Origin: Actinoallomurus purpureus
GTDB taxonomy: Bacteria; Actinomycetota; Actinomycetes; Streptosporangiales; Streptosporangiaceae
NCBI RefSeq assembly: GCF_024055795.1
Contig: NZ_JAMXMY010000009.1
Coordinates: 1 to 64,000, forward strand
Reading direction: 5' to 3'
Length of the DNA stretch: 64,000 nt
The notes under the pieces are model-generated. The model had not been told where the DNA came from. It worked only from the letters and a program-made list of their open reading frames with translations, and did not search any database. This document shows positions 1 through 49,205 of this stretch, one piece after another. How positions within the stretch are numbered: the stretch's first letter is position 1; every line of letters starts with the position of its first letter. The translations under genes were made by a program, and so were the position numbers.

Positions 1-126
1 ATCGGTGGGAAAACGGCAGGATTGCCGCTGGGCGGCCCTTGCAGTCTGCTTGAGCCGGATGCGATGAAAGTCGCCCGTCCGGTTCTGAGGGGGCCGGGGC
101 GCAGCAATGCGCTCCGGCTACCCGAC
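1..126 (+). mobile_element. 3' end of a group II intron (domains V and VI)
   Basis: Bases 52-85 form a 34-nt hairpin with all the hallmarks of group II intron domain V: a 9-bp lower helix that begins with the AGC catalytic triad (53-55), a 2-nt bulge, a 5-bp upper helix and a GAAA tetraloop. Just downstream, 95-118 folds as a 10-bp stem capped by GCAA, with an unpaired A at 120 that fits the domain VI branch point. A 3' splice site ending in AC is expected near 126. The intron-encoded reverse transcriptase would lie to the left, outside the window. The domain V match is seen directly; the exact splice site is inferred. Confidence 0.85.
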
Positions 127-12977: not shown

Positions 12978-13799
12978 CTACCAGGCGGGGGGTGCGCCGG
13001 AGCCGGCGACGTGCAGGGGGACCCCGCGCGTACGCAGTGCGGCCACCTGGTCCTGGGGGGTTCCGGAGTCGACGACGACCAGGTCGAAGGCGGTGAGCGG
13101 GGCGAGCTGGTGCAGGCCGTTCTTGGCGAACTTGCTGTGGTCGACCAGCAGCACGCGACGGTCGACGGAGTCCATCAGCGCCCGCTTCACCGCCACCGTC
13201 TCCTGCGACTGGTGGTAGCAGTGGCCGTTGGTGATCGCCGTCGTCGACATGAACAGCACGTCGGCGTGCAGCGATCGGATGGTCTCGCTGGTGCGCAGGC
13301 CGAGGAAGGCGTCATAGGCCGGGTAGTAGGCGCCACCGAGCGCGATGAGGTCGATGCCGGGCTTGCCGGCGAGCAGGTTCACCGCGGCCAGGAAGTTCGT
13401 GATCACGGTGAGCGGTTCCAGCGCCGGCAGCAGTTCGGCGATGGCGAGGCCGGTGGTGCTCTCGTCGATCATGATGGACGCACCGGGGGAGACGAGGCCG
13501 GCCGCGGTGTGGGCGAGCTGCCGTTTGGCCTCGGCCATCGCCTGCAGGCGGTGCCGCACGTCGCCGTGGTACATCGCGGACGGCTGCGCGGTGGCGCCTC
13601 CGCGGATCTTGCGCAGCCAGCCCTCACTCTGGAGCGCGTCCAGGTCGCGGTGGATGGTCATCACGCTCACGTCGTACGCCTCGGCGAGGCTCTTGACGTG
13701 CACGAACCCCTCGTCGACGACGCGCCGGCGGATCTTCTCACGGCGGTCCCGCGCGCCTGCGGCGTCGCTTGTGGCCGGTTCCGGCGCGTCCTCTGCCAC
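12978..13799 (-). CDS. DeoR/GlpR-family sugar-operon repressor
   Basis: The 273-residue protein has an N-terminal DeoR helix-turn-helix (residues about 18-70; VHVKSLAEAYDVSVMTIHRD, then GWLRKIRGGA) and a C-terminal sugar-phosphate-binding domain related to phosphosugar isomerases (MIDESTTG, LIALGGAYYPAYDAFLG, VDHSKFAKNGLH). Family members repress carbohydrate operons until a phosphorylated sugar binds. The start is GTG 13799 with GGAAGGAG 6 nt upstream; longer forms have no ribosome site. It is divergent from the sugar ABC/kinase operon, its likely target. A kinase product of that operon is the likely inducer (inference). Confidence 0.9.
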   Translation of the reverse strand: MAEDAPEPATSDAAGARDRREKIRRRVVDEGFVHVKSLAEAYDVSVMTIHRDLDALQSEGWLRKIRGGATAQPSAMYHGDVRHRLQAMAEAKRQLAHTAAGLVSPGASIMIDESTTGLAIAELLPALEPLTVITNFLAAVNLLAGKPGIDLIALGGAYYPAYDAFLGLRTSETIRSLHADVLFMSTTAITNGHCYHQSQETVAVKRALMDSVDRRVLLVDHSKFAKNGLHQLAPLTAFDLVVVDSGTPQDQVAALRTRGVPLHVAGSGAPPAW

Positions 13800-13845
13800 C
13801 TGCGCTCCTTCCACCGTGGACCCCTCGTGTGATGTCGATGTGGAA

Positions 13846-13976
13846 CGTAACATACACCCGTTAGCCCGAGCGGACGCCGGAAAACGTGGCTGTGGCGCAC
13901 CGGATCGGCACCGGTGATCGGTCTTCGTAACATTGATTAACACTCATGGCCGTTAAAAACCCTCGGAATCTTGACA
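13846..13976 (+). promoter_or_regulatory. Divergent control region of the sugar operon
   Basis: Two direct copies of CGTAACAT (13846-13853 and 13926-13933) lie in the gap between the DeoR gene and the operon, the second followed by a TTAACA-type AT-rich tract. TTGACA at 13971-13976 is a possible -35 of the operon; its -10 is poor. The repeats are candidate DeoR sites. Confidence 0.45.
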
Positions 13977-14070
13977 TGGTTCGGGCTTTGGGTGTTTCGT
14001 TCGTCCCACCTCCACTGGCGGTGTCCCTGGCCGCCGTGCCTCCTCGACCCCCGAACCATCGGAGGAGAAC

Positions 14071-15156
14071 GTGAAGATGCTGCCCTTCAGAACGGCCGCC
14101 GCGGCCACGGCCGCCCTGACCGTGCTCGCCGCCGGCGCGGCCTGCTCGTCCAAGGCCTCCGGAGGCGCCGGCGGATCCGGCGACGCCAAGAACGCCAAGG
14201 TCGCCTTCCTCATGCCGGACATCGCCTCGACCCGGTACGAGCTGTACGACGCGCCGCTGTTCAAGGCCAAAATGAAGCAGCTGTGCCCGGGATGCACGGT
14301 GCTGTACCAGAACGCCGGCGCCGACGCTTCCAAGCAACAGCAGCAGGCCAACTCCGTGCTCGCCCAGGGCGTCAAGGCCATCGTCATCGACCCGGTGGAC
14401 TCCGCGGCGGCCGCATCGATCGTGCGGACCGCGCAGTCGCAGAAGGTCGCGGTTATCGCGTACGACCGGCCGATCCCGGCGACCAAGGCCGACTACTACG
14501 TGTCGTTCGACAACGAGAAGATCGGCGCGCTGATCGCCCAGTCCCTGGTCGACCACCTCAAGCAGACCAAGGCCAAGGGCGGGATCCTCGAGGTCAACGG
14601 GTCGCCGACGGACGCCGCGGCCGGTCTGATCAAGAAGGGCATTCACAGCGCCGTCGACAGCAGCGGGCTGAAGCGGCTCGCCGAGTACGACACACCCGGC
14701 TGGGAGCCGGCCAAGGCGCAGGACTGGGTGAGCGGGCAGATCAGCAAGTTCGGCGGCGGGCAGATCGCCGGCGTCGTCGCGGCCAACGACGGCACCGGTG
14801 GCGGTGCCATCGCCGCGTTCAAGGCGGCCGACTCGCCCGTGCCCCCGGTGACCGGGAACGACGCCGAGCTCGCCGCGGCCCAGCGGATCGTCGCCGGCGA
14901 CCAGTACAACACGATCTCCAAGCCGATCAAGATCGTGGCGGAGGCCGCGGCGAACGTGGCGAACCAGTTCCTGCAGGGCAAGCCGCCCGCGGGTCAGACC
15001 ACGCTGTTCAACACGCCCTCCCAGCTGTTCACCCCGACCGTGGTGACCCAGCAGAACATCGGCACGGTGCTGCTCGGGCCCGGCGGTGCCCTCAAGGTCT
15101 CCGACGTCTGTACCCAGACGTACGCGGCGGCCTGCGCGAAGCTCGGCGTCAAGTAG
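14071..15156 (+). CDS. Sugar ABC transporter substrate-binding lipoprotein
   Basis: A 361-residue periplasmic-binding protein of the ribose/xylose group (Peripla_BP_4). A signal peptide leads to C25, probably lipid-modified (AAGAACSS, an imperfect lipobox). The mature part has the family features VAFLMPDIASTRYELYD, IVIDPVDSAAAAS, VIAYDRPI and VAANDGTGGGAIAAF. It should deliver a monosaccharide or polyol to the permease encoded two genes on. GTG 14071 or ATG 14077 may be the start; both lie behind GGAGGAG. First gene of the seven-gene operon, divergent from its DeoR regulator. The ligand cannot be named from the sequence. Confidence 0.9.
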   Translation: MKMLPFRTAAAATAALTVLAAGAACSSKASGGAGGSGDAKNAKVAFLMPDIASTRYELYDAPLFKAKMKQLCPGCTVLYQNAGADASKQQQQANSVLAQGVKAIVIDPVDSAAAASIVRTAQSQKVAVIAYDRPIPATKADYYVSFDNEKIGALIAQSLVDHLKQTKAKGGILEVNGSPTDAAAGLIKKGIHSAVDSSGLKRLAEYDTPGWEPAKAQDWVSGQISKFGGGQIAGVVAANDGTGGGAIAAFKAADSPVPPVTGNDAELAAAQRIVAGDQYNTISKPIKIVAEAAANVANQFLQGKPPAGQTTLFNTPSQLFTPTVVTQQNIGTVLLGPGGALKVSDVCTQTYAAACAKLGVK

Positions 15157-33135: not shown

Positions 33136-33156
33136 GATGCCCGAAAATCGGGCATC
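33136..33156. terminator. 9-bp hairpin with AAA loop behind the kinase gene
   Basis: GATGCCCGA (33136-33144) and TCGGGCATC (33148-33156) form a perfect stem around AAA, 140 bp behind the kinase stop and directly before the riboswitch core. It may end the kinase transcript or be part of the riboswitch leader. There is no T-run. Confidence 0.35.
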
Positions 33157-33292
33157 CGCTGAATCCGCGCGACCGCGGAGCCGGGGACCCATCGCATTAC
33201 TGGGGTGTATCGGCACATCCCCTGTGCCGTAGGGCGGCTTCCATGCCCGAACCCGTCAGCTAACCCGGTAAGCGGCATGGAAGCCGAGGAGT
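33157..33292 (+). ncRNA. c-di-AMP riboswitch (ydaO-yuaA type)
   Basis: The conserved core of actinobacterial ydaO/yuaA elements is present in order: GCTGAATCCGCGCGACCG, GGAGCCGGGGACCCA, then GGGGTGTATCGG, GTAGGGCGG, CCGAACCCGTCAGCTAACC and a final GAAGCCGAGGAG. GGCTTCCATGCC (33236-33247) pairs perfectly with GGCATGGAAGCC (33273-33284). This family binds cyclic di-AMP and usually switches off genes for cell-wall hydrolases or osmolyte/K+ uptake. It ends at the ribosome-binding site of the CHAP gene, so translational or terminator-type control of that gene is expected. Assignment is by motif order from memory. Confidence 0.85.
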
Positions 33293-33297
33293 AGTCC

Positions 33298-33906
33298 GTG
33301 TCCCCTGTTTCTCGATACCCGGTGATCCCGTTCCGGGGACGAGCCGTCAGCGCCCCCGCCGCCGTCATGACAGGCGGCGCAGCAGCGATCATTTTGATCG
33401 CGGCGGTCCTCTTGGGGCTGGGCCGGCACAAGCCGCCCACCGCCGCCGACGCGCTGAAAGTCGCCCTCTCCCAGGTCGGCGCCACCGAGAACGCCGCCGG
33501 TGGCACCAAGTTCAACCGGTGGTTCATGTCCTCGCCGTACGCTCGGATCGGCGTCGAGCGGGACGGCGGATCGATCAGCGACTACGCCAACGCCAACTGG
33601 TGCGACATGTTCGTCTCCTGGGTCGGCGTCCAGGCAGGCGTCAAGGGGATCGGCGGCGACGCCTTCACCCCGACACACGCCGAGTGGTTCCGGCGGCAAG
33701 GCCGCTGGGGCAGCGTTCCCAGACCCGGTGCGGTCGTGTTCTTCTCCTGGAACGGCGGCGGCATCGATCACGTCGGTCTGGTCGTCAAGGACAACCACAA
33801 CGGCACCGTTGAAACCGTCGAAGGCAACACCGACAACGCCGTGCGGATCCGCACCCGCAGCACCGACTACGTCGTCGGCTACGGCTACCCGAAGTACCGC
33901 CGATAG
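33298..33906 (+). CDS. Membrane-anchored CHAP-domain cell-wall hydrolase
   Basis: The 202-residue protein has an uncleaved N-terminal membrane helix (about 22-42) and a CHAP (cysteine-histidine amidohydrolase/peptidase) domain. The catalytic cysteine is C102 in NANWCDMFVSW and the histidine H158 in GGIDHVGLV, followed by VETVEGNTD with the polar third residue. Such enzymes cut peptide cross-links or the amide bond of peptidoglycan. GTG 33298 lies behind GAGGAG. The c-di-AMP riboswitch in its leader links it to the wall-stress/turgor second messenger, and the kinase upstream may belong to the same physiology (inference). Confidence 0.9.
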   Translation: MSPVSRYPVIPFRGRAVSAPAAVMTGGAAAIILIAAVLLGLGRHKPPTAADALKVALSQVGATENAAGGTKFNRWFMSSPYARIGVERDGGSISDYANANWCDMFVSWVGVQAGVKGIGGDAFTPTHAEWFRRQGRWGSVPRPGAVVFFSWNGGGIDHVGLVVKDNHNGTVETVEGNTDNAVRIRTRSTDYVVGYGYPKYRR

Positions 33907-37507: not shown

Positions 37508-38920
37508 GTGCCTTCTCCTGTCATCCCCGCGCGCCATCGCGTCAGTCTTTGGCGGGACGGCGACTTCCGCCGACTCTGGGTGGGGCAGACCGCGTCCCAG
37601 TTCGGGGCGCAAGCCGGTCAGGTGACCCTGCCGCTCATCGCCGTGGTGGCACTCAACGCCGGCGCTGCTCAGCTCGGCGTCCTGCGTGCGGTACAGCAGG
37701 CACCGATCCTGCTGTTCTCGCTCTTCGTCGGCGTGTGGGTGGACCGCCGGCGATCCCGCACCGTGATGGTGCTGGCGGATCTCGGCCGGGCCGCGGCACT
37801 GGCCGCCATCCCCATCACCTATCTCCTGGGCATGCTCGGCACTCCGGCGCTGCTCGTCGTCGCCTTCCTCGTCGGCGTTCTCACGGTGGCCTTCGACGTG
37901 GCCTACCAGGCCTCTCTCGTACGACTGGTGGAACGCGACCAGCTCGCGCAGGGCAACAGCGCGCTCGAGGGCAGCAGATCCGCGGCGCAGGTCGGCGGCC
38001 CCGCGCTCGGTGGCGCGATGGTGTCGCTCCTTTCGGCACCGATCGCCATCGTGGTGAGCGCGTTCTTCTTCACGTTGTCCTTCCTGACGATCCGGCGAAT
38101 CCGCCGACCCGAGCCGATACCTCAGCACGCAGAACCGCCCACTCGAGTCCTGCGGCAGATCCACGAAGGTCTCCGACTCGTCGTCGGCGACACCTCGTTG
38201 CGCGCCGTGGGCCTCGCCTCGGGCATCTTCCAGTTCTCCTTCGCGGCCCTGATGACCGTCTACCTGCTCTTCCTGCCGCGCACACTGCACCTGTCGGGGG
38301 CCGCCGTCGGCCTGGCGCTCGCGGCGATGGGGCCGGGCGCACTGGCGGGTTCACTGCTGTCCGCCGGCCTTCCAGGGCGGTTCGGCCACGGCGTGGTGCT
38401 GGTGTCCTCGGCGGCGCTCGCCGACGGGGTGATGCTCTGCGTACCCGCCCTGCACGGCTCCACTGCCGTCACGATCTCGTTGCTCATGACGATCAACTTC
38501 GTGTTCGGTGTTTTCAGCCAGATCGTCGACGTCACCGTCATGGCCGTTCGGCAGGCCATCACCCCGATGCGGATTCAGGGCCGGGTCGTTGCGACGATCA
38601 ATTTCGTCGGCATGGGGCTGACCCCGCTCGGTTCGCTCCTCGGTGGCTATCTGGCCGGCGAGTGGGGTTTGCGCACCAGTCTGCTGTTGACCGCCGTCGG
38701 TGTGTCACTGTCGCCGTTGTTCATGGCCCTCTCCCCACTCGCGCGCCTCGGAAGAACCCTGCCACCGGCACACCAGGCCACCGGCCTCGAAGAACCAGGA
38801 GCGCCGGGGCTCAGAGGGAGTCGCGGGCGAAGGCGGCCAGCCGGGACTCCCGGGAGCGGCCCAGGTGGGCCGCGAGTGCGTCGCGGGCCGCTTCGGAGTC
38901 GCGGTCGGCGATTGCGGTGA
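37508..38920 (+). CDS. MFS permease (MFS_3/enterobactin-exporter-like), with overrun C-terminus
   Basis: The 470-residue protein has 12 probable membrane helices of the MFS_3 type seen in macrolide or siderophore exporters (LWRDGDFRRLWVGQTASQFG, VGVWVDRRRSRTVMV, ARAVQQ-like helix 3, INFVGMGLTPLGSLLGGYLAG). GTG 37508 is preceded by AAGGA. After the last helix (near residue 430) the frame has lost its stop and runs about 110 bp into the convergent GntR gene, giving an Arg/Gly-rich tail (GSRGRRRPAGTP) that is plainly the antisense of GntR codons. The substrate is unknown. Confidence 0.85.
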   Translation: MPSPVIPARHRVSLWRDGDFRRLWVGQTASQFGAQAGQVTLPLIAVVALNAGAAQLGVLRAVQQAPILLFSLFVGVWVDRRRSRTVMVLADLGRAAALAAIPITYLLGMLGTPALLVVAFLVGVLTVAFDVAYQASLVRLVERDQLAQGNSALEGSRSAAQVGGPALGGAMVSLLSAPIAIVVSAFFFTLSFLTIRRIRRPEPIPQHAEPPTRVLRQIHEGLRLVVGDTSLRAVGLASGIFQFSFAALMTVYLLFLPRTLHLSGAAVGLALAAMGPGALAGSLLSAGLPGRFGHGVVLVSSAALADGVMLCVPALHGSTAVTISLLMTINFVFGVFSQIVDVTVMAVRQAITPMRIQGRVVATINFVGMGLTPLGSLLGGYLAGEWGLRTSLLLTAVGVSLSPLFMALSPLARLGRTLPPAHQATGLEEPGAPGLRGSRGRRRPAGTPGSGPGGPRVRRGPLRSRGRRLR

Positions 38921-39464
38921 GGACGCGTTCGTGTTCGTCGCGGGTGATCTCGAGGTCCTCCGCGCTCTCGTGACTTCCCCGGTCGTAGATCCGCAACTGC
39001 GCGGTGAGCCGGGTCAGGAGGGTCTGGATCGTGGTGTTGTGGCCGGCCTGCCACAGCGTGGCGTGCCACTGCGCGTTCAGTTCGCGGATCTCGGCGGGAT
39101 CGGTCCGCTCGCCGGCGGTGGCGTGGAGGTGGCGTAGCCGCGCCAGGTCGAGATCCGTCCTGCGTAGGGCGGCACTCGCCGCGGCTTGGGCCTCCAGGGC
39201 GATGCGGGCCTCGTAGATCTCCAGGACGTCTTCGGAGGTGCCGGCGCGGACCTGGTAGCCGCGGGCGGCCCGCTTGAGCAGGCCGTCCTGCTCGAGTCGG
39301 CCGAGCGCTTCTCGCACCGGCGTCCTGGACACGCCGTACCGCGCGGCGAGCGTCGTCTCCAGAAGGACGCTGCCCGCGGGGAAGCGCCCGGCGAGGACGT
39401 CGTCGCGCAGCCGCTCGTACTGTGCGGCCCCCGCCTCGGAGCGGCCGTTGCCCGCTGCTGTCAC
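38811..39464 (-). CDS. GntR/FadR-family regulator (FCD domain)
   Basis: The 217-residue protein has a GntR winged helix (LRDDVLAGRFPAGSVLLETT, RYGVSRTPVREALGRLEQDG, residues about 15-70) and an FCD all-helical ligand domain (YEARIALEAQAAASA; the metal-site pattern D-x3-H is visible in ELNAQWHATL). GTG 39464 or GTG 39470 may be the start. No ribosome site is visible, so the transcript may be leaderless, as is frequent in actinomycetes. It is divergent from the ABC/rhodanese operon, its probable target, and overlaps the tail of the MFS gene. Confidence 0.85.
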   Translation of the reverse strand: MTAAGNGRSEAGAAQYERLRDDVLAGRFPAGSVLLETTLAARYGVSRTPVREALGRLEQDGLLKRAARGYQVRAGTSEDVLEIYEARIALEAQAAASAALRRTDLDLARLRHLHATAGERTDPAEIRELNAQWHATLWQAGHNTTIQTLLTRLTAQLRIYDRGSHESAEDLEITRDEHERVLTAIADRDSEAARDALAAHLGRSRESRLAAFARDSL

Positions 39465-39512
39465 GACCACACCGTAGCAGCGTGCATGCGCTGTACGGGA
39501 TATCTCGCAGCT

Positions 39513-39563
39513 GTGTATACGCATGTATCCAAAGATTTCCTACCTGTCTTGTGTTGTATGCAT
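39513..39563. promoter_or_regulatory. Candidate GntR sites between regulator and ABC operon
   Basis: GTGTATACGCA (39513-39523) and TTGTATGCAT (39554-39563) are two related elements around TGTAT-C in the divergent region, in line with the TNGTNNNACNA-type sites of FadR-like regulators. The gap from 39465 to 39808 contains no gene. Confidence 0.45.
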
Positions 39564-39808
39564 CTCCTCGCGTACGCTGCGACGACCATCGCAGGAGGTC
39601 CAGTGCCAGGTCATCACCCATGTCGGGACGCCACGGGGTGTCCGGCTCGGCGGTCGGCGGTCGGCACCGCCGTCGCCGGCGGCTGTAGCCCGCGCCGGTG
39701 ACATTCGCGCGTATCGCGCGCCGGCACCTCCTCCACGAACCCCCGATGACCGCGATCCATGACGCCTCCGTTGCTCCCTCCGGGAACCCTCACCAAGTAG
39801 GACGAACG

Positions 39809-40873
39809 ATGAATCGACTCTCGCGCTCCCTGTCGCGCGGTACCCGGATGGTGGCCGTGGCCGCCGGTGCCCTTCTCGCGGTGACGGCCTGTGGCTCCAC
39901 GAAAGGCCACGACGCGGCGGGCACGGCCGGTTCGCCGGCCCAGGTGTCCATCGCGCTGGGATGGACGCCGAACACCGACTACACGGGGATCTACGTCGCC
40001 GACTCGCTGGGCTACTTCAAGAAGCAGGGCATCTCGCTGAAGGTGATCCCGTACGCCTCGACCGCGCCGGAGACGCTCGTCGCCCACGGAACCGCGGACT
40101 TCGGCTTCTCCTACCAGGCGGGCGTGGCGTACGCGAAGGCGGCCGGGCATGACGTGATCGGCGTCTTCGCGCCCGACCAGAAGGGCACCTACGTCATCGG
40201 CGTGCGGTCCGACCGGGCGGACATCGCCTCGCCGAAGGATCTGGACGGCAAGACCTACGCCGGCTTCGGCACCCCCGACGAGCTGCCCGAACTGCAGAGC
40301 GTCATCAGGCACGATGGCGGCAGGGGCACGTTCAACCACGTCACCCTCAACACCTCCGCGTACGACGCGGTCTACAACGGCAAGGCGGACTTCACCATCT
40401 CGGTCGCCACCTGGGAGGTGCTCCAGTCCAAGCTGGTCGGCAAGCCGATGAAGAGCTTCAAGCTGACCGACTACGGCTTCCCCGACCAGTACTCCAACCT
40501 GATCGTTTCGAGCAGCAAGTACCTGACCGCCCACGCCGACCTCGCCCGGAGGTTCCTGGCCGCCACCCAACAGGGGTACGCGTACGCGGCGGACCACCCC
40601 CAGGAGGCGGCCAAGATCCTCATCGCCGCGAACCCGTCCGTCTTCCCCAAGCCGGATCTCGTCTACCAGAGCCAGGCGGCGCTCGCCGCGGGCGGATACC
40701 TGCGCAACGCCAAGGGGCAGGTCGGCACTCAGAGCGCGAGTCTCTGGAGCTCCTACGGCGACTTCCTCTACGGCAACGGCCTGCTGGTCGACGGCGACGG
40801 CAAGAAGCTGGCCGCCAAGCCCGACTGGTCGACCTACTACACCAACGACTACCTCCCGGCGGGCAGCCGATGA
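39809..40873 (+). CDS. ABC transporter substrate-binding lipoprotein (NMT1/THI5-like)
   Basis: The 354-residue protein has a lipoprotein signal peptide with lipobox VTAC (C28) and an NMT1/THI5-like (SsuA/ThiY) binding fold: VSIALGWTPNTDYTGIYVAD, LGYFKKQGISLKVIPY, GTADFGFSYQAGVAYAKAAG and SPKDLDGKTYAGFGTP. The family binds pyrimidine thiamine precursors, sulfonates, nitrate or similar small ligands. First gene of a seven-gene coupled operon. ATG 39809 has AGGACG upstream and starts directly at the signal peptide. Confidence 0.9.
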   Translation: MNRLSRSLSRGTRMVAVAAGALLAVTACGSTKGHDAAGTAGSPAQVSIALGWTPNTDYTGIYVADSLGYFKKQGISLKVIPYASTAPETLVAHGTADFGFSYQAGVAYAKAAGHDVIGVFAPDQKGTYVIGVRSDRADIASPKDLDGKTYAGFGTPDELPELQSVIRHDGGRGTFNHVTLNTSAYDAVYNGKADFTISVATWEVLQSKLVGKPMKSFKLTDYGFPDQYSNLIVSSSKYLTAHADLARRFLAATQQGYAYAADHPQEAAKILIAANPSVFPKPDLVYQSQAALAAGGYLRNAKGQVGTQSASLWSSYGDFLYGNGLLVDGDGKKLAAKPDWSTYYTNDYLPAGSR

Positions 40874-41790
40874 GCCACGTGCGCGTGATGCTGGAGTACC
40901 TGCATCCCTGGACGAACTCGGCCGGGTTCTTCGTCGCGGCCGGTGAGGGCTGGTACCGCGACGCCGGCCTCGACGTCGAACTGTCGGTCGTCGACCCCTC
41001 CCGCGGCGACCCGCTGGATTACCTGTCCCGGCACGAGGCGACGTTCGCGGTCTTCCCGACGAACCGCCTCCTCGTCCGCCGGGAGCGCGGGCAGCGGCTG
41101 ATCGGGATCGCCTCGATCAATCATCGGGCCATGGAGACCGTCCAGACCGCCGTCACGACGGGGATCCGGCGGCCCCGCGACCTCGAGGGCCGGCGGATCG
41201 CGTTCAACCCGACGCCGCGCGGCGTCGCGATGGTCCGTCACCTCGTCGCGGCCGACGGGGGTGATCCCGACCGTGTGATCACCGTGGACAGCGGGCTGCG
41301 CGAACTGGGCATCGACGACATCCTGGCGGGGACGGCCGACGCCACCTTCGGCAACTACTGGGCCTGGGACGTGCTGTTCGGGTCCGCGCCGGCCGAGGAG
41401 CGGCTCTACTGGCCGGTCGACGAGATCGGGGCGCCGCGCTTCCACAGCTACCTGCTCGGCACCCAGGAGTCGACGCTCGACCGGAACCCCCGGCTGGTCC
41501 GCGCGTTCCTGGACGCGACCGCGCGCGGCTACCTGGCGGCGGTCGAGAGCCCCGACACGGCGCTGACCGCGTTCGAACGTCACATCCCGTACTTCCCGCG
41601 TGGCGTGCTCCGACGCTCCCTGTCGCTGATCTCGGGCACCTGGACGCACGAGGGTCGCTGGGGTGACCAGCGGGCCGAGTTGCTCGGGCCCTACGCCGAG
41701 TGGCTCTGCGCCAACGACGTGCTGGCGGACGCGGACGTCTGGCGCGAGGCCACGACCAATGAGTTCCTGCCGGAGAGGAGCCGGGTGTGA
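40870..41790 (+). CDS. NMT1/THI5-like protein without export signal
   Basis: This 306-residue protein has the same fold family (LEYLHPWTNSAGFFVAAGEG, WYRDAGLDVELSVV, TFAVFPTNRLLVRRERG, LEGRRIAFNPTPRG, TADATFGNYWAWDV) but starts immediately with the first strand; no signal peptide or lipobox is encoded. The start is fixed by the ATGA overlap with the lipoprotein gene. A cytoplasmic member could be an enzyme (yeast THI5 makes the thiamine pyrimidine from PLP and its own histidine) or a sensor. The Cys-rich CCCFC motif of THI5 is absent. Coupled on the other side to a PPOX gene. Confidence 0.82.
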   Translation: MSHVRVMLEYLHPWTNSAGFFVAAGEGWYRDAGLDVELSVVDPSRGDPLDYLSRHEATFAVFPTNRLLVRRERGQRLIGIASINHRAMETVQTAVTTGIRRPRDLEGRRIAFNPTPRGVAMVRHLVAADGGDPDRVITVDSGLRELGIDDILAGTADATFGNYWAWDVLFGSAPAEERLYWPVDEIGAPRFHSYLLGTQESTLDRNPRLVRAFLDATARGYLAAVESPDTALTAFERHIPYFPRGVLRRSLSLISGTWTHEGRWGDQRAELLGPYAEWLCANDVLADADVWREATTNEFLPERSRV

Positions 41791-42200
41791 CGAGCGGTGT
41801 CGCCCTGCCCGCCGCCGCGCGGCGGCTCATCGACACGCCGGAGTTCGCGGTGCTGGCGACCGCCGATCCCGGCGGCGGCCTGCACCAGTGCGTCATGTGG
41901 GTCGGCCGGACGGGTGATGAGCTGTACATGGTGACCAAGAGCTTCCGGCGGCAGTGCCGCAACCTCCTGGCCGACCCCCGGGTCGGCGTCCTGGTGTACT
42001 CCCGGGACCGGCCGCGGCACTACGTCCGCGTCGAGGGCACCGCCACGGTGAGCGAGGACGGCGCGACCGCGCTCGCGCACCGGCTGGCCAGGGCGTACAC
42101 CGGCAGAGACCACGAGGTGACCGACCCGGCCGAGGAGGCGCAGCGGGTGGTCGTCCGGATCAGGCCCGAGCGGGTGCACGTCTACGGGGAGGCCGCATGA
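41787..42200 (+). CDS. PPOX-family flavin/F420-binding protein
   Basis: The 137-residue protein has the split-barrel fold of pyridoxamine-5'-phosphate-oxidase-like proteins (PEFAVLATADPGGGLHQCVM, LYMVTKSFRRQCRNL, DPRVGVLVYSRDRP, HYVRVEGTATV, IRPERVHVYG). Actinobacterial members use FMN or F420 to reduce or oxidise small molecules. GTG 41787 overlaps the previous stop by 4 bp and its own stop overlaps the kinase start. Its position inside a transport operon implies that the imported compound, or a product of it, is its substrate (inference). Confidence 0.85.
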   Translation: MTSGVALPAAARRLIDTPEFAVLATADPGGGLHQCVMWVGRTGDELYMVTKSFRRQCRNLLADPRVGVLVYSRDRPRHYVRVEGTATVSEDGATALAHRLARAYTGRDHEVTDPAEEAQRVVVRIRPERVHVYGEAA

Positions 42201-42841
42201 CCTTCGCGACCGGTGACGCGCGGCCCGGCCTCGCGGCGGTACGAGACCTCGGCGCGCTGCTGCGGGCGGCGCCGCCGGGCGCCGGGCGCACCCGCGTCCT
42301 CGCGGTCGACGGGCGGTCCGGCTCGGGCAAGTCGACCGTGGCCGCCCTGCTCGGCGACGAACTGGACGCCCCGGTGGTCAGCCTCGAGTACCTCTACGGT
42401 GGCTGGGACGGCCTGGAGAACGGCGTCGACCTGCTGGTCTCGGAGGTGCTCGTTCCGCTCGCCGCCGGGCGCACGGCACGCGTCCCGCACTACGACTGGG
42501 TCAACACGGTCTGGGACGACCCGATCGAACTGCCGCCTCCGGACCTGCTCGTCGTGGAGGGCGTCGGCGCCGGAGCGCGCCGCGCCGCACGCCACACGAG
42601 CGTTCTGGTCTGGCTGGAGGCGGCGGACCGGACCCGCAGGCGGCGGGCGCTCGGTCGCGACGGCGACACGTACCTGCCGCACTGGGAACGCTGGGCGGCG
42701 CAGGAGGCCGAGATGCTCGAACGTGAGGCGACCCGCGACCGCGCCGACGCGATCCTGCGCACCGACGCGGCACCGGAGCCGTCCGGGCCGATGGCCCTCG
42801 GTCCGCTGCGGTTCGAACGACGGCCGGGAGCGGCCCGATGA
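42197..42841 (+). CDS. Uridine-kinase-like P-loop phosphotransferase
   Basis: The 214-residue protein has a Walker A motif GRSGSGKST (residues 39-47), a VVSLEYLYGGWDGL acceptor-site segment, HYDWVNTVWDD, DLLVVEGVGAG (Walker B-like) and a lid rich in arginine (RTRRRRALGRDGD). This is the layout of uridine-kinase/phosphoribulokinase-type NMP kinases used for small alcohols or nucleosides. Coupled by ATGA overlaps to the PPOX and permease genes. In the pathway it may trap the imported ligand by phosphorylation (inference). Confidence 0.82.
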   Translation: MTFATGDARPGLAAVRDLGALLRAAPPGAGRTRVLAVDGRSGSGKSTVAALLGDELDAPVVSLEYLYGGWDGLENGVDLLVSEVLVPLAAGRTARVPHYDWVNTVWDDPIELPPPDLLVVEGVGAGARRAARHTSVLVWLEAADRTRRRRALGRDGDTYLPHWERWAAQEAEMLEREATRDRADAILRTDAAPEPSGPMALGPLRFERRPGAAR

Positions 42842-43686
42842 CGGCGCAGAAGGTGGTCGGTGACCAGGCGCTCCCGGACAGCGGCGTCGCTCTTCCCCGC
42901 CGCCCCAGAGCCGTACGCCGTCTCGCCCGGGGCGTGCCCTCCCTGGTGATCGTCGCCGCGCTCCTGGCCGGGTGGCAGATCTACGCGGTCACGGGGAATC
43001 TCGGTACGGACGTGCTGCCGAGCCCGGCGAAGGTCGCCTCCGAGGGATGGGCGCACCGCGCCGAACTGTGGGACAACACCCTGCCGACGCTGCGGGCCAC
43101 GTTCGCCGGGTTCGCGCTCTCGCTCGTCGTCGGCTTCGCGCTGTCCGTGCTCATCGACGCGTCGGCGGTGGCGCGACGGGCGCTGCTGCCGCTTCTCGTG
43201 GTGACCCAGACGCTCCCGTTGATCGCCATCGCCCCGCTGGTCGTCCTGTGGTTCGGGTTCGCCCTCCTGCCGAAGGTGCTGATCGTCGCGCTCGTGACCT
43301 TCTTCCCGATCACCGTCGGGCTGGTCGAGGGCTACGCGGCCACCGACCGCGACAGCGAGGTCCTGCTGCGCACGATGGGAGCCGGACGGTGGCGGATCTT
43401 CCGCACTCTGCGGGTGCCCACCGCGCTGCCCTTCTTCTTCGCCGGCCTGCGCATCGCGATCACCTACGCCGTGGTGGCTGCGATCTTCGCGGAGTACGCC
43501 GGCGCGACGTCCGGACTCGGGATCTACATGCAGAACGCCAAGAACTCCTTCCGTACCGACCTGGTGCTCGCGACGGTCGCGGTCAGCTCCGCCCTGACCC
43601 TGGTGCTGTTCGGCCTCACCTACGTGGTCGAACGCCTGGTGACGCCGTGGGTCCATCTCGCCCGCCGACAGGGGAGGGCATCGTGA
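42838..43686 (+). CDS. ABC transporter permease (SsuC/ThiX family)
   Basis: A 282-residue permease with about six membrane helices. The cytoplasmic EAA-type loop (VEGYAATDRDSEVLLRTMGA, GRWRIFRTLRVPTALPFF) is intact, and LPSPAKVASEG near the first helix is typical of the sulfonate/nitrate/thiamine-precursor group. It partners the lipoprotein at 39809 and the ATPase that follows. Overlaps of 4 bp on both sides fix the ends. Confidence 0.9.
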   Translation: MTAQKVVGDQALPDSGVALPRRPRAVRRLARGVPSLVIVAALLAGWQIYAVTGNLGTDVLPSPAKVASEGWAHRAELWDNTLPTLRATFAGFALSLVVGFALSVLIDASAVARRALLPLLVVTQTLPLIAIAPLVVLWFGFALLPKVLIVALVTFFPITVGLVEGYAATDRDSEVLLRTMGAGRWRIFRTLRVPTALPFFFAGLRIAITYAVVAAIFAEYAGATSGLGIYMQNAKNSFRTDLVLATVAVSSALTLVLFGLTYVVERLVTPWVHLARRQGRAS

Positions 43687-44453
43687 GCACCGACGGTGCG
43701 GCGCCGGCCGCCAAGGTGGAGATCCGCTCGCTGAGCCGGTCGTTCGACGGCCTCGATGTCATCCGCGACCTGTCGCTGGAGGTCCGCGAGCACGAGTTCG
43801 TCTCCATCCTCGGCCCGAGCGGCAGCGGGAAGTCGACGACCTTCTCCGTCCTGACCGGCGCGCTCGCCCCGTCGGCCGGCGAGGTGCTCGTCGACGGGCG
43901 GCCGCTGGGGCGGCGACGCGACCAGTTCGCCTACATGCCGCAGAAGGACGCGCTGCTGCCCTGGCGGCGCATCATCGACAACCTCACCCTCGGGCTGGAG
44001 GTGATGGGCGTACGGCGGCCGGAGGCCCGCCGCCGGGTGCGCCCGCTGCTGGAGACGTTCGGCCTGGCCGGGTTCGAGCGCGCCTATCCGTTCCAGCTCT
44101 CCGGCGGCATGCGTCAGCGGGCGGCGCTGCTGCGCACCGTCGTACAGGATCGGGGAGTGCTCCTGCTCGACGAGCCGTTCGGGGCGCTCGACGCCCTGAC
44201 CCGCGCCCAGATGCAGCAGTGGATCGAGGAGGTCCGCGGTCGCCACCAGTGGACGGTGCTGCTGATCACCCACGACGTGCGAGAGGCGATCTTCCTCTCT
44301 GACCGGATCTACGTCTTCTCACCGCGACCGGCGAGTGTCCTGGCCTGCGTCGATGTTCCGCTTCCCCGGCCGAGGACGATCGAGACCCTCACCGACCCCG
44401 CCTTCACCCGCATCGAGGCCGAGCTCCTCGGCACCCTCCTGCAGAGAGGATGA
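43683..44453 (+). CDS. ABC transporter ATPase (SsuB/TauB family)
   Basis: The 256-residue ATPase has Walker A GPSGSGKST, Q-loop YMPQKDALLPWR (the LLPWR after the Q-loop is specific to the nitrate/sulfonate/thiamine-precursor group), signature LSGGMRQR, Walker B LLLDEPFGALD and switch H in LITHDVREA. It drives import with the preceding permease. GTG 43683 overlaps the permease stop (GTGA). The rhodanese gene starts 5 bp behind its stop. Confidence 0.92.
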   Translation: MSTDGAAPAAKVEIRSLSRSFDGLDVIRDLSLEVREHEFVSILGPSGSGKSTTFSVLTGALAPSAGEVLVDGRPLGRRRDQFAYMPQKDALLPWRRIIDNLTLGLEVMGVRRPEARRRVRPLLETFGLAGFERAYPFQLSGGMRQRAALLRTVVQDRGVLLLDEPFGALDALTRAQMQQWIEEVRGRHQWTVLLITHDVREAIFLSDRIYVFSPRPASVLACVDVPLPRPRTIETLTDPAFTRIEAELLGTLLQRG

Positions 44454-44457
44454 CCCG

Positions 44458-45327
44458 ATGTCGCTGCTGCCACCGCTCCTCGACGCCGGGACGTTGGCCG
44501 ACGCGCTGGGGGATCCGTCCCTGCGGGTCCTCGACGCGACGGTACGGCTGAACCGCCCGCCCGGAGGCGGTCCGTACACGCCGGAGAGCGGCCGGGACGC
44601 GTACGAGACGGAGCACGTCCCGACCGCGGGCTTCGCCGACCTCATCGTCGACCTGGCCGACCCGGACGCCCCGTGGCCCTTCGCCCTGCCGCCGGCCGCG
44701 CGGTTCGCGGCCGCGGCCGGTCGCCTGGGCATCGGGCCCGGGACGCACGTCGTCGTCTACGCCCAGGACTCCCCGATGTGGGCCACGCGGCTGTGGTGGC
44801 TGCTGCGGTACTTCGGGTTCGACGCGGTCAGCGTGCTCGACGGCGGCCTGCCCGCGTGGCGCGCGGCCGGCCTGCCGCTCACCGGCGAACCGGCTCGTCA
44901 CCCGGCCGCGCGGTTCGACGCCCGGCCGCGGGCCGGGCTTCTGGCCACCCGCGCCGACGTCGAGGCGATCGTGGCCGGCCGGTCCGCCTGCCTCGTGAAC
45001 GCGCTGTCCGACGCCGTGTTCCGGGGCGAAGGGCCCACGTCCTACAGCCGGCCGGGTCGCATCCCCGGCAGCGTCGGCGTGCCGGCGGCCGGCCTGCTCG
45101 ATCCGGCCACGAACCGTTTCCGCCCAACCGCGGAACTGACGGAGCGCCTCGACCCGGTCCTGCGCGAGCCCGCGGTCGTCCTCTACTGTGGCGGCGGCAT
45201 CTCGGCGACGATCGACGTCTTCGCCCTCTCCCTCCTCGGCCGCGACGACATCCGACTGTACGACGGCTCTCTCGCCGAGTGGTCGGCCGACCCGTCACTG
45301 CCGCTGGACACCGGAAGCCGGGCATGA
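44458..45327 (+). CDS. Tandem-rhodanese sulfurtransferase
   Basis: The 289-residue protein contains two rhodanese domains. The N-terminal one is inactive (VVVYAQDSPMWATR, no cysteine). The C-terminal one has the active C244 in VLYCGGGISAT, a six-residue loop closer to the CGSGVT pattern of 3-mercaptopyruvate sulfurtransferases than to thiosulfate-type CRxGxR. It moves sulfane sulfur to an acceptor. Its place at the end of the ABC operon, 5 bp after the ATPase stop, suggests the transported compound is sulfur-containing or receives sulfur (inference). Confidence 0.88.
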   Translation: MSLLPPLLDAGTLADALGDPSLRVLDATVRLNRPPGGGPYTPESGRDAYETEHVPTAGFADLIVDLADPDAPWPFALPPAARFAAAAGRLGIGPGTHVVVYAQDSPMWATRLWWLLRYFGFDAVSVLDGGLPAWRAAGLPLTGEPARHPAARFDARPRAGLLATRADVEAIVAGRSACLVNALSDAVFRGEGPTSYSRPGRIPGSVGVPAAGLLDPATNRFRPTAELTERLDPVLREPAVVLYCGGGISATIDVFALSLLGRDDIRLYDGSLAEWSADPSLPLDTGSRA

Positions 45328-45392: not shown

Positions 45393-46553
45393 TTACTTCG
45401 CGGGTGCCTCGATTCTGGTGAAGAAGTCGACTATTTCCCGCGGAGATTCAGCGCTGAAGCACATCTCAAGGCCTTGGGCGGACATTTCGGCCGCCGCCGC
45501 GGCCCGGGGGAACATGGCCGTCTCGTACCGGGCCGGCGCGGTCTCGACGTCGTCTCCGTGTTCGATGATGGCCAGCGCCAGTTCGGCCGCGTCGAGCATG
45601 GCGAGGTTCGCTCCCTCGCCGGCGTACGGCGACATCACGTGCGCGGCGTCGCCCACCAGTGTCACGCCCGGGATCCGCGTCCAGGAGTGCCCGGTCGGCA
45701 GGGCGTAGATCCGGCGGGGGACGATCGTGTCGTCACAGCGGCGGATGAGATCGGTCAACTCGGTGCCCCAGTCCGCGAACTCCTCGAGCAGGCCGTCGCG
45801 GGCGGCCGGAGCATCGGACCAGTCGATGCCACAGCTGACCGCCCAGTCCTCCGGGACACGCAGCGAGACGGCGAGATCGATGTGTTCGCCGCCGTGGCCC
45901 ATCATGGCCTTGCCGTCGGAGAGGGCGAAGAAAATGCCGGGGCCGGCGAGTGCGGCCGAGTCCGGGTAGCGCTCCTTGACGTGGGAGAGGCGGAGTTCGA
46001 GGTGCGTGATCCCGCAGTACTGCGGCGTGGCGGCCGAGAGCAGCGGGCGTACCCGCGACCATGTGCCGTCCGCTCCGACCAGGAGATCGGCGACGGTGCT
46101 GCTGCCATCGGCGAACGTCAGCTCGTGCCGGCCGTCGTCGAGTCGCCTGGTGGTGGTGACCTTGTGGCCCCAGGCGATCCTGCCGGGGTCGAGTGAGGCG
46201 ACGAGCAGATCGCGCAGCACCGACCGGCCGATCTCAGGGCGGTCCCCCTCTCCACCTTCGGGTCCGGTGTCGACGTGGACCCTGCCGGTCTTGTCGAGGA
46301 CACGCTGGTGCTCGCCCTGCGGGTGTGTGAGGCGACGGAAGTCCTCGTAGAGGCCCGCTTCGCGAAGGGCGCGTTGCCCGGATTCCTCGTGCATGTCGAG
46401 GGACCCGCCCTGGCGGCGTGCGTCGGCGGAGGCGTCGCCTTCGTAGACGGTGGAGGGGATGCCGTGGTTCTGGAGGACGCGCGCGAGGACGAGGCCGGAC
46501 AGGCCCGCTCCGACGATCGCGATGGCGGGATGAGAGACGGAGTGTGAGGACAT
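45393..46553 (-). CDS. FAD-dependent monooxygenase (TetX-like)
   Basis: The 386-residue flavoprotein monooxygenase has the ADP-binding motif IVGAGLSGLVLARVL (G15-G20), the DG motif in LVGADGTWSRVRPLL and the second FAD motif LVGDAAHVMSPYAGEGAN. This set fits class A hydroxylases such as TetX, aromatic hydroxylases and polyketide-tailoring enzymes. It uses NAD(P)H and O2 to hydroxylate a small aromatic or drug molecule. It follows the TetR gene on the same strand by 9 bp, with its AGAGAG ribosome site at the TetR stop codon, so both are one operon. Tetracycline inactivation is possible but unproven. Confidence 0.88.
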   Translation of the reverse strand: MSSHSVSHPAIAIVGAGLSGLVLARVLQNHGIPSTVYEGDASADARRQGGSLDMHEESGQRALREAGLYEDFRRLTHPQGEHQRVLDKTGRVHVDTGPEGGEGDRPEIGRSVLRDLLVASLDPGRIAWGHKVTTTRRLDDGRHELTFADGSSTVADLLVGADGTWSRVRPLLSAATPQYCGITHLELRLSHVKERYPDSAALAGPGIFFALSDGKAMMGHGGEHIDLAVSLRVPEDWAVSCGIDWSDAPAARDGLLEEFADWGTELTDLIRRCDDTIVPRRIYALPTGHSWTRIPGVTLVGDAAHVMSPYAGEGANLAMLDAAELALAIIEHGDDVETAPARYETAMFPRAAAAAEMSAQGLEMCFSAESPREIVDFFTRIEAPAK

Positions 46554-46562
46554 GATGCTCTC

Positions 46563-47252
46563 TTATTCGTTGGGCGCATGAGAGCCGGCGGCGAGGATGC
46601 CGTCGAGCAGGACGTCGAAGGCCCAGTCGGAGCGGGCCGCCCCGTCTCCGGAGATGAGTTCGACACCGAGCCGGACGATGTGGGGGTATCGCACCGCGTC
46701 GGCGGTGGCGATCAGCGCGGCCAGGGCGGAGAGATCGTCAGACGGCCTCGGGGTGCTGTGTTCGACGGCGACGGCGGTGGGCTGGAGCAAGAGCAGGTCC
46801 ACGCCCCAGGCCGCCGCCCGATCCGACACGCCGCCCTCGTTGAGCAGGGCGAGGAGCGCCTCCACCAATGCCATGTAGTTCGGGCCGGCCGGCTGCGTGG
46901 ACAACGCCATCCGTGCGATCTCCGGGTAGCGGAAGAGGACGCTCTGATAGCTCCGCAGTAGGGCCTTCAACCGATCCCGCCACGTCCCGGTTCCGCCGGC
47001 GGACGGGCTGACCTCGCCCAGTAGCGCGTCGAGGATCTGCGCGTGCAGGTCCTCGGTGTTCCGGACGTAGACGTAGAGCGACGCATGCCCGGTGTCCAGA
47101 GCAGTGGCGACACGGCGCATCGTCACCTTGTCCAGGCCCTCCTCCCGCAAGATCGCCAGTGCGGCGTCGACGATGCTCTGCCTGGTCAAGGCCGGTTTCG
47201 CCGGGCGCTCTCGTCGACTGCGGGGACTCTTGGGCCGATCGGTCGGGCTCAT
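46563..47252 (-). CDS. TetR-family repressor of the monooxygenase operon
   Basis: The 229-residue protein has a basic N-terminal tail (SPRSRRERPAKPALTRQ), the TetR helix-turn-helix (KVTMRRVATALDTGHASLYVYV, residues about 42-63) and a TetR_C-type ligand domain. First gene of the operon; the start at 47252 lies only 15 bp from two identical palindromes that would be its binding sites, so negative autoregulation is very likely. The ligand is probably the monooxygenase substrate. Confidence 0.9.
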   Translation of the reverse strand: MSPTDRPKSPRSRRERPAKPALTRQSIVDAALAILREEGLDKVTMRRVATALDTGHASLYVYVRNTEDLHAQILDALLGEVSPSAGGTGTWRDRLKALLRSYQSVLFRYPEIARMALSTQPAGPNYMALVEALLALLNEGGVSDRAAAWGVDLLLLQPTAVAVEHSTPRPSDDLSALAALIATADAVRYPHIVRLGVELISGDGAARSDWAFDVLLDGILAAGSHAPNE

Positions 47253-47438: not shown

Positions 47439-49205
47439 GTGGCCGAGCTTCTGGCGGTCAACGTGGGAATGCCGAAAGAGGTCCCCTGGCAGGGCCGGAC
47501 GGTGCACACCGGCGTGTGGAAGCGGCCCGTCACCGGCCCGCGGATGGTGCGCCGGCTCAACATCGACGGGGACGGCCAGGGTGACCTGGCCGGGCACGGC
47601 GGCGAGTACCGCGCGGTGCTGGTCTATCAGCTCGCCTCCTATCGCCACTGGCAGGAGCAGCTCGGACGCGAAGACCTGACCTTCGGGCATTTCGGGGAGA
47701 ACTTCACCGTCGACGGTCTGCCGGACGACGAGGTGTGCATCGGAGACCGGTACCGCATCGGGCAGGCCGTCTTCGAGGTCACCCAGCCCCGTGTCACGTG
47801 CTACCGGGTGGGCCTGCGCCTGGGCGAGCCGCGGATGGCCGCCCTCCTGGTGTCGCATCGGCGCCCCGGCTTCTACCTTCGCGTTCTCACTGAAGGGCAC
47901 GTGGAAGCGGGAGACGAGATCACGAAGGTCGCCGACGGCCCGGAGAGAATGACCGTCGCGGAGATCGACGCCCTGCTCTATCTGCCCGGACACCCACGCG
48001 ACCAGGTGGCACGGGCGTTGCGGATCCCCGCGCTCAGCCCGGGCTGGAAGGCGTCTTTCAAGGCGCTGCTCGACCAGGCCGACCGTGCGCCGGGCGAACC
48101 GGCCGGCAACGCGGGACTGACCACGGCCGCCGGCCCGCCTCCTGCCTGGGAGGGGTTCCGGCCGCTACGGGTCACCCGTATCGACGCTGAGAGCAAGAGC
48201 GTCTTCTCCCTGACGCTCGCCGCCGAAGACGACACCCCGCTGCCGGCCGCACCGGCCGGCCAGTTCATCACCCTCCGGCTGCGCCCGGATGACGCCGGCG
48301 CACCGCTGATCCGCAGCTATTCGATGTCCGGCCCCCCGGGAGCGGCGCGCTACCGCATCAGCGTGAAACAGGAACTCCACGGTGCCGCCGGCACCTATCT
48401 CCGCGCCAATGTACGCGTCGGTGACCACCTGGACGTCGCGGCGCCACGGGGCGGCTTCACCTTGCGCGACGGACAGAACCCGATCCTGCTGGTGTCGGCC
48501 GGCATCGGTGCCACCCCCGTCCTGGCCATACTGCACGCGCTCGCCGCCGCGGACTCCACGCGCGAGGTGTGGTGGCTGTACGGTGCCCGCGACGGCTCCG
48601 AACACCCCTTCGCGCGCGAGGCCCGCGCCCTGTTGGCCGGACTCGCCCACGCGTACGAGCGGATCTGTTACAGCCGCCCGGCACCCGGCGATCGTCAGGG
48701 CGTCGACTACGGCACCGCAGGACGGCTCTCGGTCGACCTGCTCGGCCGCTTCGGCGTGCCTCGAGGCGCGGACGTCTACCTGTGCGGGCCGCCTGATTTC
48801 ATGCGGGAGTTCCCCGCCGCGCTCGCCGCCTCCGACCTGGCCCCCGGCAGTGTCCACACGGAGGTCTTCGGGGCCGGGCCCGCACTGACCCCCGGCCTCG
48901 CCGAGGCCCGCGCGCGTCCGGTGCACCCGCCCGCGGGTCCGCCCGGCTCCGGACCTGCGATCTCGTTCGCGCGCAGTGGCCTGACCGTCCCCTGGAACAC
49001 CGCCTACTCCAGCCTGCTGGAGTTCGCGGAGGCATGCGACGTTCCCGTCCGCTGGTCGTGCCGAACCGGCGTCTGCCACAACTGTGAGAGCGGTCTGCTG
49101 GCCCGCTCCGTCGCCTACTCACCCGACCCGGTCGAGCCACCGGCCGAAGGCAACATCCTGATCTGCTGTTCCCGGCCCCGCGACGATCTCATCGTCGACC
49201 TTTGA
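47439..49205 (+). CDS. MOSC - FAD/NAD reductase - 2Fe-2S ferredoxin fusion protein
   Basis: The 588-residue protein joins three parts. A MOSC domain (residues about 1-200; LAGHGGEYRAVLVYQ, HFGENFTVDGL, TQPRVTCYRVGLRLG, with the Cys expected to bind molybdenum cofactor or sulfur) is followed by a ferredoxin-NADP reductase-type module (about 230-480; LIRSYSMSGPP for FAD, LVSAGIGATPVLA for NAD). The C-terminus is a plant-type 2Fe-2S domain (about 505-588; C541, C546, C549 and C576/C577). Electrons can flow NAD(P)H-FAD-FeS-MOSC, as expected of a YiiM-like N-hydroxylated-compound reductase. GTG 47439 has GAGGAGG upstream. Confidence 0.92.
   Translation: MAELLAVNVGMPKEVPWQGRTVHTGVWKRPVTGPRMVRRLNIDGDGQGDLAGHGGEYRAVLVYQLASYRHWQEQLGREDLTFGHFGENFTVDGLPDDEVCIGDRYRIGQAVFEVTQPRVTCYRVGLRLGEPRMAALLVSHRRPGFYLRVLTEGHVEAGDEITKVADGPERMTVAEIDALLYLPGHPRDQVARALRIPALSPGWKASFKALLDQADRAPGEPAGNAGLTTAAGPPPAWEGFRPLRVTRIDAESKSVFSLTLAAEDDTPLPAAPAGQFITLRLRPDDAGAPLIRSYSMSGPPGAARYRISVKQELHGAAGTYLRANVRVGDHLDVAAPRGGFTLRDGQNPILLVSAGIGATPVLAILHALAAADSTREVWWLYGARDGSEHPFAREARALLAGLAHAYERICYSRPAPGDRQGVDYGTAGRLSVDLLGRFGVPRGADVYLCGPPDFMREFPAALAASDLAPGSVHTEVFGAGPALTPGLAEARARPVHPPAGPPGSGPAISFARSGLTVPWNTAYSSLLEFAEACDVPVRWSCRTGVCHNCESGLLARSVAYSPDPVEPPAEGNILICCSRPRDDLIVDL

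Follow-up and report, generated by a model that had tools for sequence, protein, structure and literature searches.

The locus described here raises the question of why a bacterium should encode, side by side, two binding proteins of the NMT1/THI5 type, one with a lipoprotein-like start and the other apparently confined to the cytoplasm. It lies in the window, by which we mean the whole stretch of 64,000 nucleotides analysed (positions 1 to 64,000 of contig NZ_JAMXMY010000009.1, assembly GCF_024055795.1) from Actinoallomurus purpureus, and comprises seven forward genes coding for the substrate-binding proteins SBP1 and SBP2, a PPOX-class protein, a P-loop kinase, the permease and the ATPase of an ATP-binding cassette (ABC) importer, and a rhodanese (Table 1). 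The reading that we favour, with a probability of about 0.43, is that the products of this operon bring thiamine, or a heterocycle derived from it, into the cell and act on it in the cytoplasm. An original prediction made from the same sequence had proposed uptake, phosphorylation and sulfur transfer of a thiamine/pyridoxal-like or sulfonate-like compound; that theme is supported here and the evidence leans to the thiamine-like side, the choice of ligand resting on sequence relationships.

The seven genes form one real operon, in which five junctions are 4-bp overlaps and the sixth, between the ATPase and the rhodanese, is a 4-bp gap. This layout, with its divergent GntR regulator, had been correctly predicted, as had the family labels of all the genes, on which the Pfam and NCBIfam profile models applied to the window proteins agree (NMT1 for both binders, PPOX, PRK-like, ABC and rhodanese). 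Such overlaps are ordinary in actinobacterial operons, and the interest of the locus lies in what is conserved, not in the overlaps as such. A scan of one genome per species yielded at least 52 loci, 49 of them close (48-73% identity over the best segment) and 3 remote; the 52 loci compared below are the 49 close ones, two further stretches and the window, and a gene was scored as present when a tblastn match above a chosen bit-score cut-off fell no more than 6 kb from SBP2. The same genes in the same order as in the window, with one flavin mononucleotide (FMN) monooxygenase added before the rhodanese, recur in Actinocorallia (loci L016 and L077 in our numbering) and Actinomadura (L017), and the operon is therefore more than a product of chance. 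Looser versions were found in Streptomyces, Kineosporia, Actinoplanes, Paenibacillus and Pseudomonas, and a GntR homolog lies near SBP2 in 10 of the 52 loci, the window counted.

The comparison separates a core from its accessories. A rhodanese gene lies near SBP2 in 50 of the 52 loci (the exceptions being L060, at a contig end, and L055), an SBP1-like gene in 45 and an ABC ATPase gene in 47. The P-loop kinase is found in 20 loci, an unrelated APH-type kinase in 29, both in none and neither in three, so that every locus with a kinase in view (49/49) has one type only; we take this to mean that the module includes a phosphorylation step. Two of the kinase-free loci (L052 and L060) stop at contig ends and the contig of the third, L062, starts less than 3 kb upstream; in its sister L061 the P-loop kinase lies farther upstream than 3 kb. 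PPOX genes occur in 15/52 loci, every time together with the P-loop kinase, and FMN monooxygenases of the NtaA/DmoA class in 17/52, of which 16 have that same kinase type. Around SBP2 of Kineosporia (L018, 4287-5303 and 11139-16538) several open reading frames (ORFs), one of them profile-scanned, read as LLM-class flavin oxidoreductases. Streptomyces and one further actinobacterium supply 22 of the 52 loci, and hence counts by group matter: among 17 groups, ten have only the P-loop kinase, six only the APH type and none both, one (Clostridiales) being incomplete. In a tree of 51 SBP2 rows the window clusters with Actinocorallia, Actinomadura and Kineosporia. Kinase type requires two changes on this tree, but since a single split was not rejected (approximately unbiased test, p-AU 0.19), repeated displacement of one kinase by the other is not claimed. 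Spread by plasmids was also considered, and no SBP2 match was obtained in the plasmid collection at 1e-30. The core of the module is thus SBP2, one kinase, a rhodanese and an importer, whereas PPOX, monooxygenase, kinase type and importer vary; the set of seven genes first proposed is indeed conserved together in relatives, but it is not a fixed set.

The importer bears on the nature of the substrate. SBP1 has a start that reads like that of a lipoprotein, in keeping with the binder that had been proposed, and its matches among solved structures include 4nmy (1.2e-43, 152.9 bits) and ThiY (3ix1, 7.6e-22); the SBP1 of Paenibacillus, which adjoins SBP2, matches 4nmy at 3.5e-136. The record of 4nmy, a C. 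difficile protein, is entitled 'Thiamin-bound form of Substrate-binding Protein of ABC Transporter', and the structure paper likewise names it as a thiamin-bound ABC substrate-binding protein (PMC10586155). The ABC genes of the window score against Ssu/Tau models, and together with the rhodanese and with the L022 monooxygenase, the best solved match of which is a dimethyl-sulfide monooxygenase (3.1e-155), they might be taken to indicate organosulfur or sulfonate assimilation, in which an SsuABC/TauABC-like importer and a DmoA/SsuD-like monooxygenase cleaving C-S bonds would be joined by a rhodanese handling the released sulfur. The score of SBP1 against the SsuA model, however, is 33.6 bits, far below both the cut-off of 163.5 and its own score against 4nmy. 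Moreover, a kinase, which to our knowledge is no part of any known sulfonate route, is found in every complete locus, the monooxygenase is not found within 6 kb in the window and in 28 of the 29 APH-type loci at the chosen cut-off, and pseudomonads have a PnuC-family carrier in place of the ABC genes. We therefore regard sulfonate assimilation as very unlikely.

The loci that lack ABC genes, three from Pseudomonas and one from '[Pseudomonas] boreopolis', are informative in this respect. All four of these pseudomonad-type loci encode SBP2, an APH kinase, a rhodanese, a TonB receptor, a PnuC-family carrier and a UTRA-type GntR regulator, and in each of them (4/4) the PnuC-family protein is close to the TonB receptor. 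In Bacteroides, the pairing of a TonB receptor with PnuT is established for thiamine (PMC5613172). The homology of SBP1 to 4nmy and this pairing in pseudomonads make thiamine or a relative the best guess at the substrate, which, judging from such homologies, is probably thiamine or a derivative. The association of the carrier with SBP2 is not confined to single genomes: among 59 genomes drawn from the family of L032, in all six that have SBP2 a gene of the PnuC family lies at a distance of 5-6 kb from it, and the SBP2-side Pnu copy of L032, compared with 20 other Pnu loci, is 61-66% identical to three, which lie near SBP2 in SBP2 genomes, and 48-54% identical to the other 17. Riboswitch typing of the PnuC-family genes gave no Rfam match at 20 Pnu loci.

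PnuC-family carriers also transport nicotinamide riboside, and the cargo could accordingly be this compound or a vitamin-like heterocycle of another kind, for instance riboflavin/lumichrome or pyridoxine. The L022 monooxygenase is also similar to riboflavin lyase (4.8e-87), the PPOX protein resembles PNPOx, and in L034 an ORF reading as a secreted acid phosphatase (13295-14131, forward strand) lies between the TonB receptor and the carrier, which it adjoins. Yet SBP1 is related to binders of thiamin and formylaminopyrimidine (FAMP), the near-constant rhodanese suggests that sulfur is involved, and in one Pseudomonas genome, that of L032, it is a different, second Pnu protein, one of the 17 more distant copies and 49% identical to the SBP2-side copy, that adjoins a kinase reading as NadR-like. 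Another vitamin seems to us as improbable as a sulfonate.

If thiamine or a relative enters the cell, the next question is what SBP2 does there. SBP2 should be cytoplasmic, as had been surmised: no in-frame ATG, GTG or TTG was found in the 240 codons upstream of its ATG, which rules out export by an upstream start over that distance, its own start is unlike that of a lipoprotein, and the first strand of its structural model begins at residue 2. The protein is strongly conserved, with 57 invariant columns of 306 residues in 31 sequences from three phyla; identity to the window protein is 55-74% for 27 of the 30 relatives and 48% at the lowest, that between phyla is about 60%, and in most loci conservation is higher than that of SBP1. 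The model has a predicted local distance difference test (pLDDT) score of 93.7, and its nearest folds in Foldseek are 4nmy, ThiY (3ix1) and Thi5 (4esx; 1.9e-17, template modelling (TM) score 0.79). The comparison with yeast THI5 that had been suggested thus confirms a shared fold but not a shared active site. In a profile alignment, THI5 K62 is replaced by F62, H66 by an invariant R66 and the CCCFC motif by A-P-x-Y/F-H (188-192), and none of the invariant positions of the 31 SBP2 sequences is a Cys, Lys or His. As we take K62 to be the pyridoxal phosphate lysine and H66 the substrate histidine, with CCCFC as a further motif of that enzyme, these replacements mean that THI5 chemistry, so understood, is not available to SBP2, and a THI5-type hydroxymethylpyrimidine (HMP) synthase is ruled out by its residues.

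What SBP2 has instead is an invariant P-T-P-R-G loop (114-118), preceded by a nearly invariant N113, which occupies the place of the glycine loop of THI5 and ThiY and leads into a helix. On the basis of alignment and model, this loop may be a phosphate site, a property that would suit a protein acting after a kinase. Together with it, conserved residues such as Y10, W14, N16, D42, N65-R66, Y163, W164 and W166 lie at loops and strand/helix ends, as they would in a ligand cleft. This arrangement, the binding-protein fold and the lack of an invariant Cys, Lys or His could also be expected of a protein that is no enzyme and instead serves in the cytoplasm as a sensor, carrier or chaperone of the ligand, buffering the phosphorylated product for the other enzymes. 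The very high conservation of SBP2 and its retention where the ABC importer is absent suit an enzyme better, and enzymes with binding-protein folds do exist, as exemplified by thiaminase I (PMC5627462) and THI5. A role without catalysis is hence considered quite unlikely.

The main rival to a thiamine-processing pathway is salvage or supply of the vitamin, in which SBP2 would make or rescue HMP phosphate (HMP-P) in place of ThiC, as THI5 does in yeast, and the rhodanese would feed thiazole synthesis. The THI5/ThiY fold of SBP2 is congruent with such a role. Within the order of the window, where SBP2 has a scattered distribution (E <= 1e-40; 7 of 297 genomes, the window's own among them), ThiC is present in 2/7 SBP2 genomes versus 192/297 overall, and the window's own genome is itself without a ThiC match, which keeps supply or salvage under consideration. 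ThiC is present, however, in 20 of 31 SBP2 genomes (42 searched, less 7 that are SBP2-free and 4 presumed, from their sizes and hits, to be duplicates), including all four of the pseudomonad type and all six of Streptomyces, and is lacking from six of the seven other genomes of the genus although these are SBP2-free; this inconsistency led us to reject SBP2 as a ThiC replacement. Regulation points the same way. At Rfam gathering scores, scans of the window and of 21 relative loci gave no thiamine pyrophosphate (TPP) riboswitch, nor did the ThiG stretch of the window's own genome, whereas both ThiC control loci (2/2) have one. Control by a TPP riboswitch was accordingly discarded for the 22 loci, and its absence is easier to reconcile with a route driven by its substrate than with supply of the vitamin. 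Given also the replaced THI5 residues, supply in place of ThiC appears unlikely, and the role of the module would be catabolic or one of salvage. Beside one Streptomyces SBP2 locus, a ZMP/ZTP riboswitch (L026:14036-14122, reverse strand) lies upstream of a FolD-like ORF.

The last gene of the operon bears on the fate of sulfur. The nearest solved relatives of its rhodanese are the 3-mercaptopyruvate sulfurtransferases (MSTs) 3olh and 4jgt, followed by 1urh, which we take to be SseA of E. coli. In an alignment of 47 rows (three of the 50 rhodaneses were dropped as too short), the active-site Cys is present in 45/45 readable rows, mostly within the loop CGGGISA. The first of the two MST substrate arginines, by which we understand human R188 and R197, presumed to hold the carboxylate of 3-mercaptopyruvate, is replaced in all 46 readable rows (0 Arg), and the position of the second is Tyr in 46/46 rows, that arginine being absent in the window and its loss elsewhere doubtful. 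The description of this protein as MST-like is therefore apt for its fold and its two domains and inexact for its pocket, from which at least one of the two arginines is gone. Because of these changes, plain 3-mercaptopyruvate is unlikely to be its natural substrate, in the window at any rate; an alpha-mercaptoketone from the opened thiazole ring of thiamine would fit. In an Acidimicrobiaceae metagenome-assembled record, kinase and rhodanese share one 504-aa open frame (L058:3470-4984, forward strand), a possible fusion and no more, since in a record of this kind the linker might be open merely by chance.

These elements can be assembled into a provisional pathway. SBP1, the permease and the ATPase would import the compound, and the P-loop kinase would phosphorylate a hydroxyl group on it. 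SBP2 would then hold the phosphorylated compound through the PTPRG loop and R66, and either cleave it or present it, while the rhodanese would accept sulfur, in persulfide form, from some mercapto compound that is not 3-mercaptopyruvate. A chemically natural candidate for this sulfur donor is the alpha-mercaptoketone that remains once the thiazole ring has opened, and in relatives a DmoA-like FMN monooxygenase and PPOX may add an oxidative step. Thiamine as the ligand, the phosphate site, the removal of sulfur and the catabolic direction are all putative parts of this scheme.

Several observations weigh against it. The window SBP1 matches 4nmy with middling strength and shares only about 30% identity with its counterparts in the Paenibacillus and Actinoplanes loci, no thiamine-pathway gene was seen among neighbors conserved in at least three genera, and the combination of ThiG with no ThiC match in the window's own genome speaks for a supply route. 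The FMN monooxygenase was not found in that genome either, save for a partial match (46% over 84 residues) and weaker ones. In the rhodanese, an Arg one residue before the second MST position in 37/46 rows (Ser in the window) means that a carboxylate may still be held there, and SBP2 might bind without catalysing. Finally, 248 of the 297 genomes of the order have a member of the P-loop kinase family (E <= 1e-25, 11 candidates per genome scored), nearly all of them without SBP2, and the family therefore gives no pointer to the substrate; an attempt to derive specificity from co-occurrence failed for the same reason. Around eight stand-alone copies, two recurring groups of ORFs were seen, each in 3/8, and no neighbor in more than three. 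The kinase model (pLDDT 90.3) has PRK and uridine-cytidine kinase as its nearest folds, at TM scores of 0.5-0.6 only, in keeping with the proposed uridine-kinase-like label.

A bolder version of the thiamine reading, which we find doubtful, though less so than supply in place of ThiC, is that SBP2 represents a new class of cytoplasmic binding-fold enzymes cleaving phosphorylated thiamine or its thiazole half and that, with a dedicated rhodanese and one or the other of two interchangeable kinases, it makes up the first pathway of vitamin B1 breakdown in bacteria to be genetically defined, spread over three phyla and served by two kinds of importer. Were this the case, B1 breakdown would gain named genes, candidate hosts and simple assays built on the core of SBP2, kinase and rhodanese; there would be a further example of a binding-protein fold that has come to serve inside the cell, perhaps as an enzyme; and the rhodanese would have a substrate pocket unlike that of 3-mercaptopyruvate sulfurtransferase.

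Table 1. Features of the operon and its divergent regulator in the Actinoallomurus purpureus window.
Feature	Position	Strand	Support
GntR regulator, FCD-type, divergent	38811..39524	-	Pfam FCD 1.2e-23, GntR 1.8e-16; start codon uncertain
SBP1, lipoprotein substrate-binding protein, NMT1 family	39809..40873	+	NMT1 1.6e-53
SBP2, cytoplasmic (predicted) NMT1/THI5-fold protein	40870..41790	+	NMT1 1.4e-51
SBP2 N113-G118, N + P-T-P-R-G, proposed phosphate-binding loop	41206..41223	+	alignments; putative loop role
PPOX-class flavin/F420 protein, TIGR03618, Rv1155-like	41787..42200	+	TIGR03618 2.1e-29, 102.3 bits (cut-off 79.05)
P-loop small-molecule kinase, uridine-kinase/phosphoribulokinase-like	42197..42841	+	PRK 8.6e-6; PRK06547 1.4e-42, below cut-off
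ABC importer permease, SsuC/TauC class	42838..43686	+	BPD_transp_1 2.8e-27
ABC importer ATPase	43683..44453	+	ABC_tran 1.1e-28
Two-domain rhodanese, loop CGGGISA	44458..45327	+	MST model 1.3e-42, 145.8 bits (cut-off 250); 3olh 1.3e-37

Elsewhere in the window, an ORF convergent with the operon (45393-46553, reverse strand) reads as a monooxygenase dependent on flavin adenine dinucleotide (FAD) and stands beside a TetR-like regulator (46563-47252, reverse strand), and a 588-aa ORF (47439-49205, forward strand) reads as a protein in which a MOSC domain and a flavin/ferredoxin reductase are combined. A c-di-AMP (ydaO/yuaA) riboswitch (33147-33290, forward strand, 85.4 bits) is followed just 3' by a short ORF reading as a CHAP-like hydrolase (33298-33906, forward strand), and a Group II intron match (50-126, forward strand, 62.6 bits) lies at the window edge.

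The module is real and conserved, and its parts come from known families; in the open-access literature searched (titles, abstract starts and often only top matches) no description of this gene set was found. The original expectation that no described pathway has this set has to be qualified for the importer, the only part that matches a known thiamine system. Like ThiXYZ (ThiY) and the 4nmy importer, it combines an NMT1 binder with one permease and one ATPase, and SBP1 is homologous to both binders; what sets it apart is its linkage to a second NMT1 protein, which is cytoplasmic, and to a kinase and a rhodanese, and the fact that the scans gave no TPP riboswitch; in three paenibacilli, by contrast, a transport operon of the NMT1/ThiY type appears, in the account of PMC5627462, to carry one. 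With THI5 of yeast and Candida, an HMP-P synthase, SBP2 has in common the NMT1 binding fold and the absence of an export signal, but not the residues discussed above. Thiaminase I is likewise an enzyme with a binding-protein fold, of group II, that acts on thiamine (PMC5627462); it is extracellular and has a catalytic Cys, in contrast to the cytoplasmic SBP2 with its lack of an invariant one. The Rca/Lum catabolism of riboflavin begins with the FMN monooxygenase RcaE (PMC12746152), to the class of which the monooxygenases of the 17 loci belong, but the gene set differs, the loci described here having a kinase and a rhodanese and the window being without a monooxygenase. SseA and MPST share with the rhodanese two domains and an active cysteine loop, which is mostly CGGGISA in the window type as against CGSGVTA, in addition to the replaced first arginine and an MST model score below cut-off. 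Finally, the OMthi-PnuT system of thiamine uptake resembles the four pseudomonad-type loci in having a TonB receptor near a PnuC-family carrier; no TPP riboswitch was found at these four loci, and the carrier is linked there not to tnr3 but to SBP2, an APH kinase and a rhodanese.

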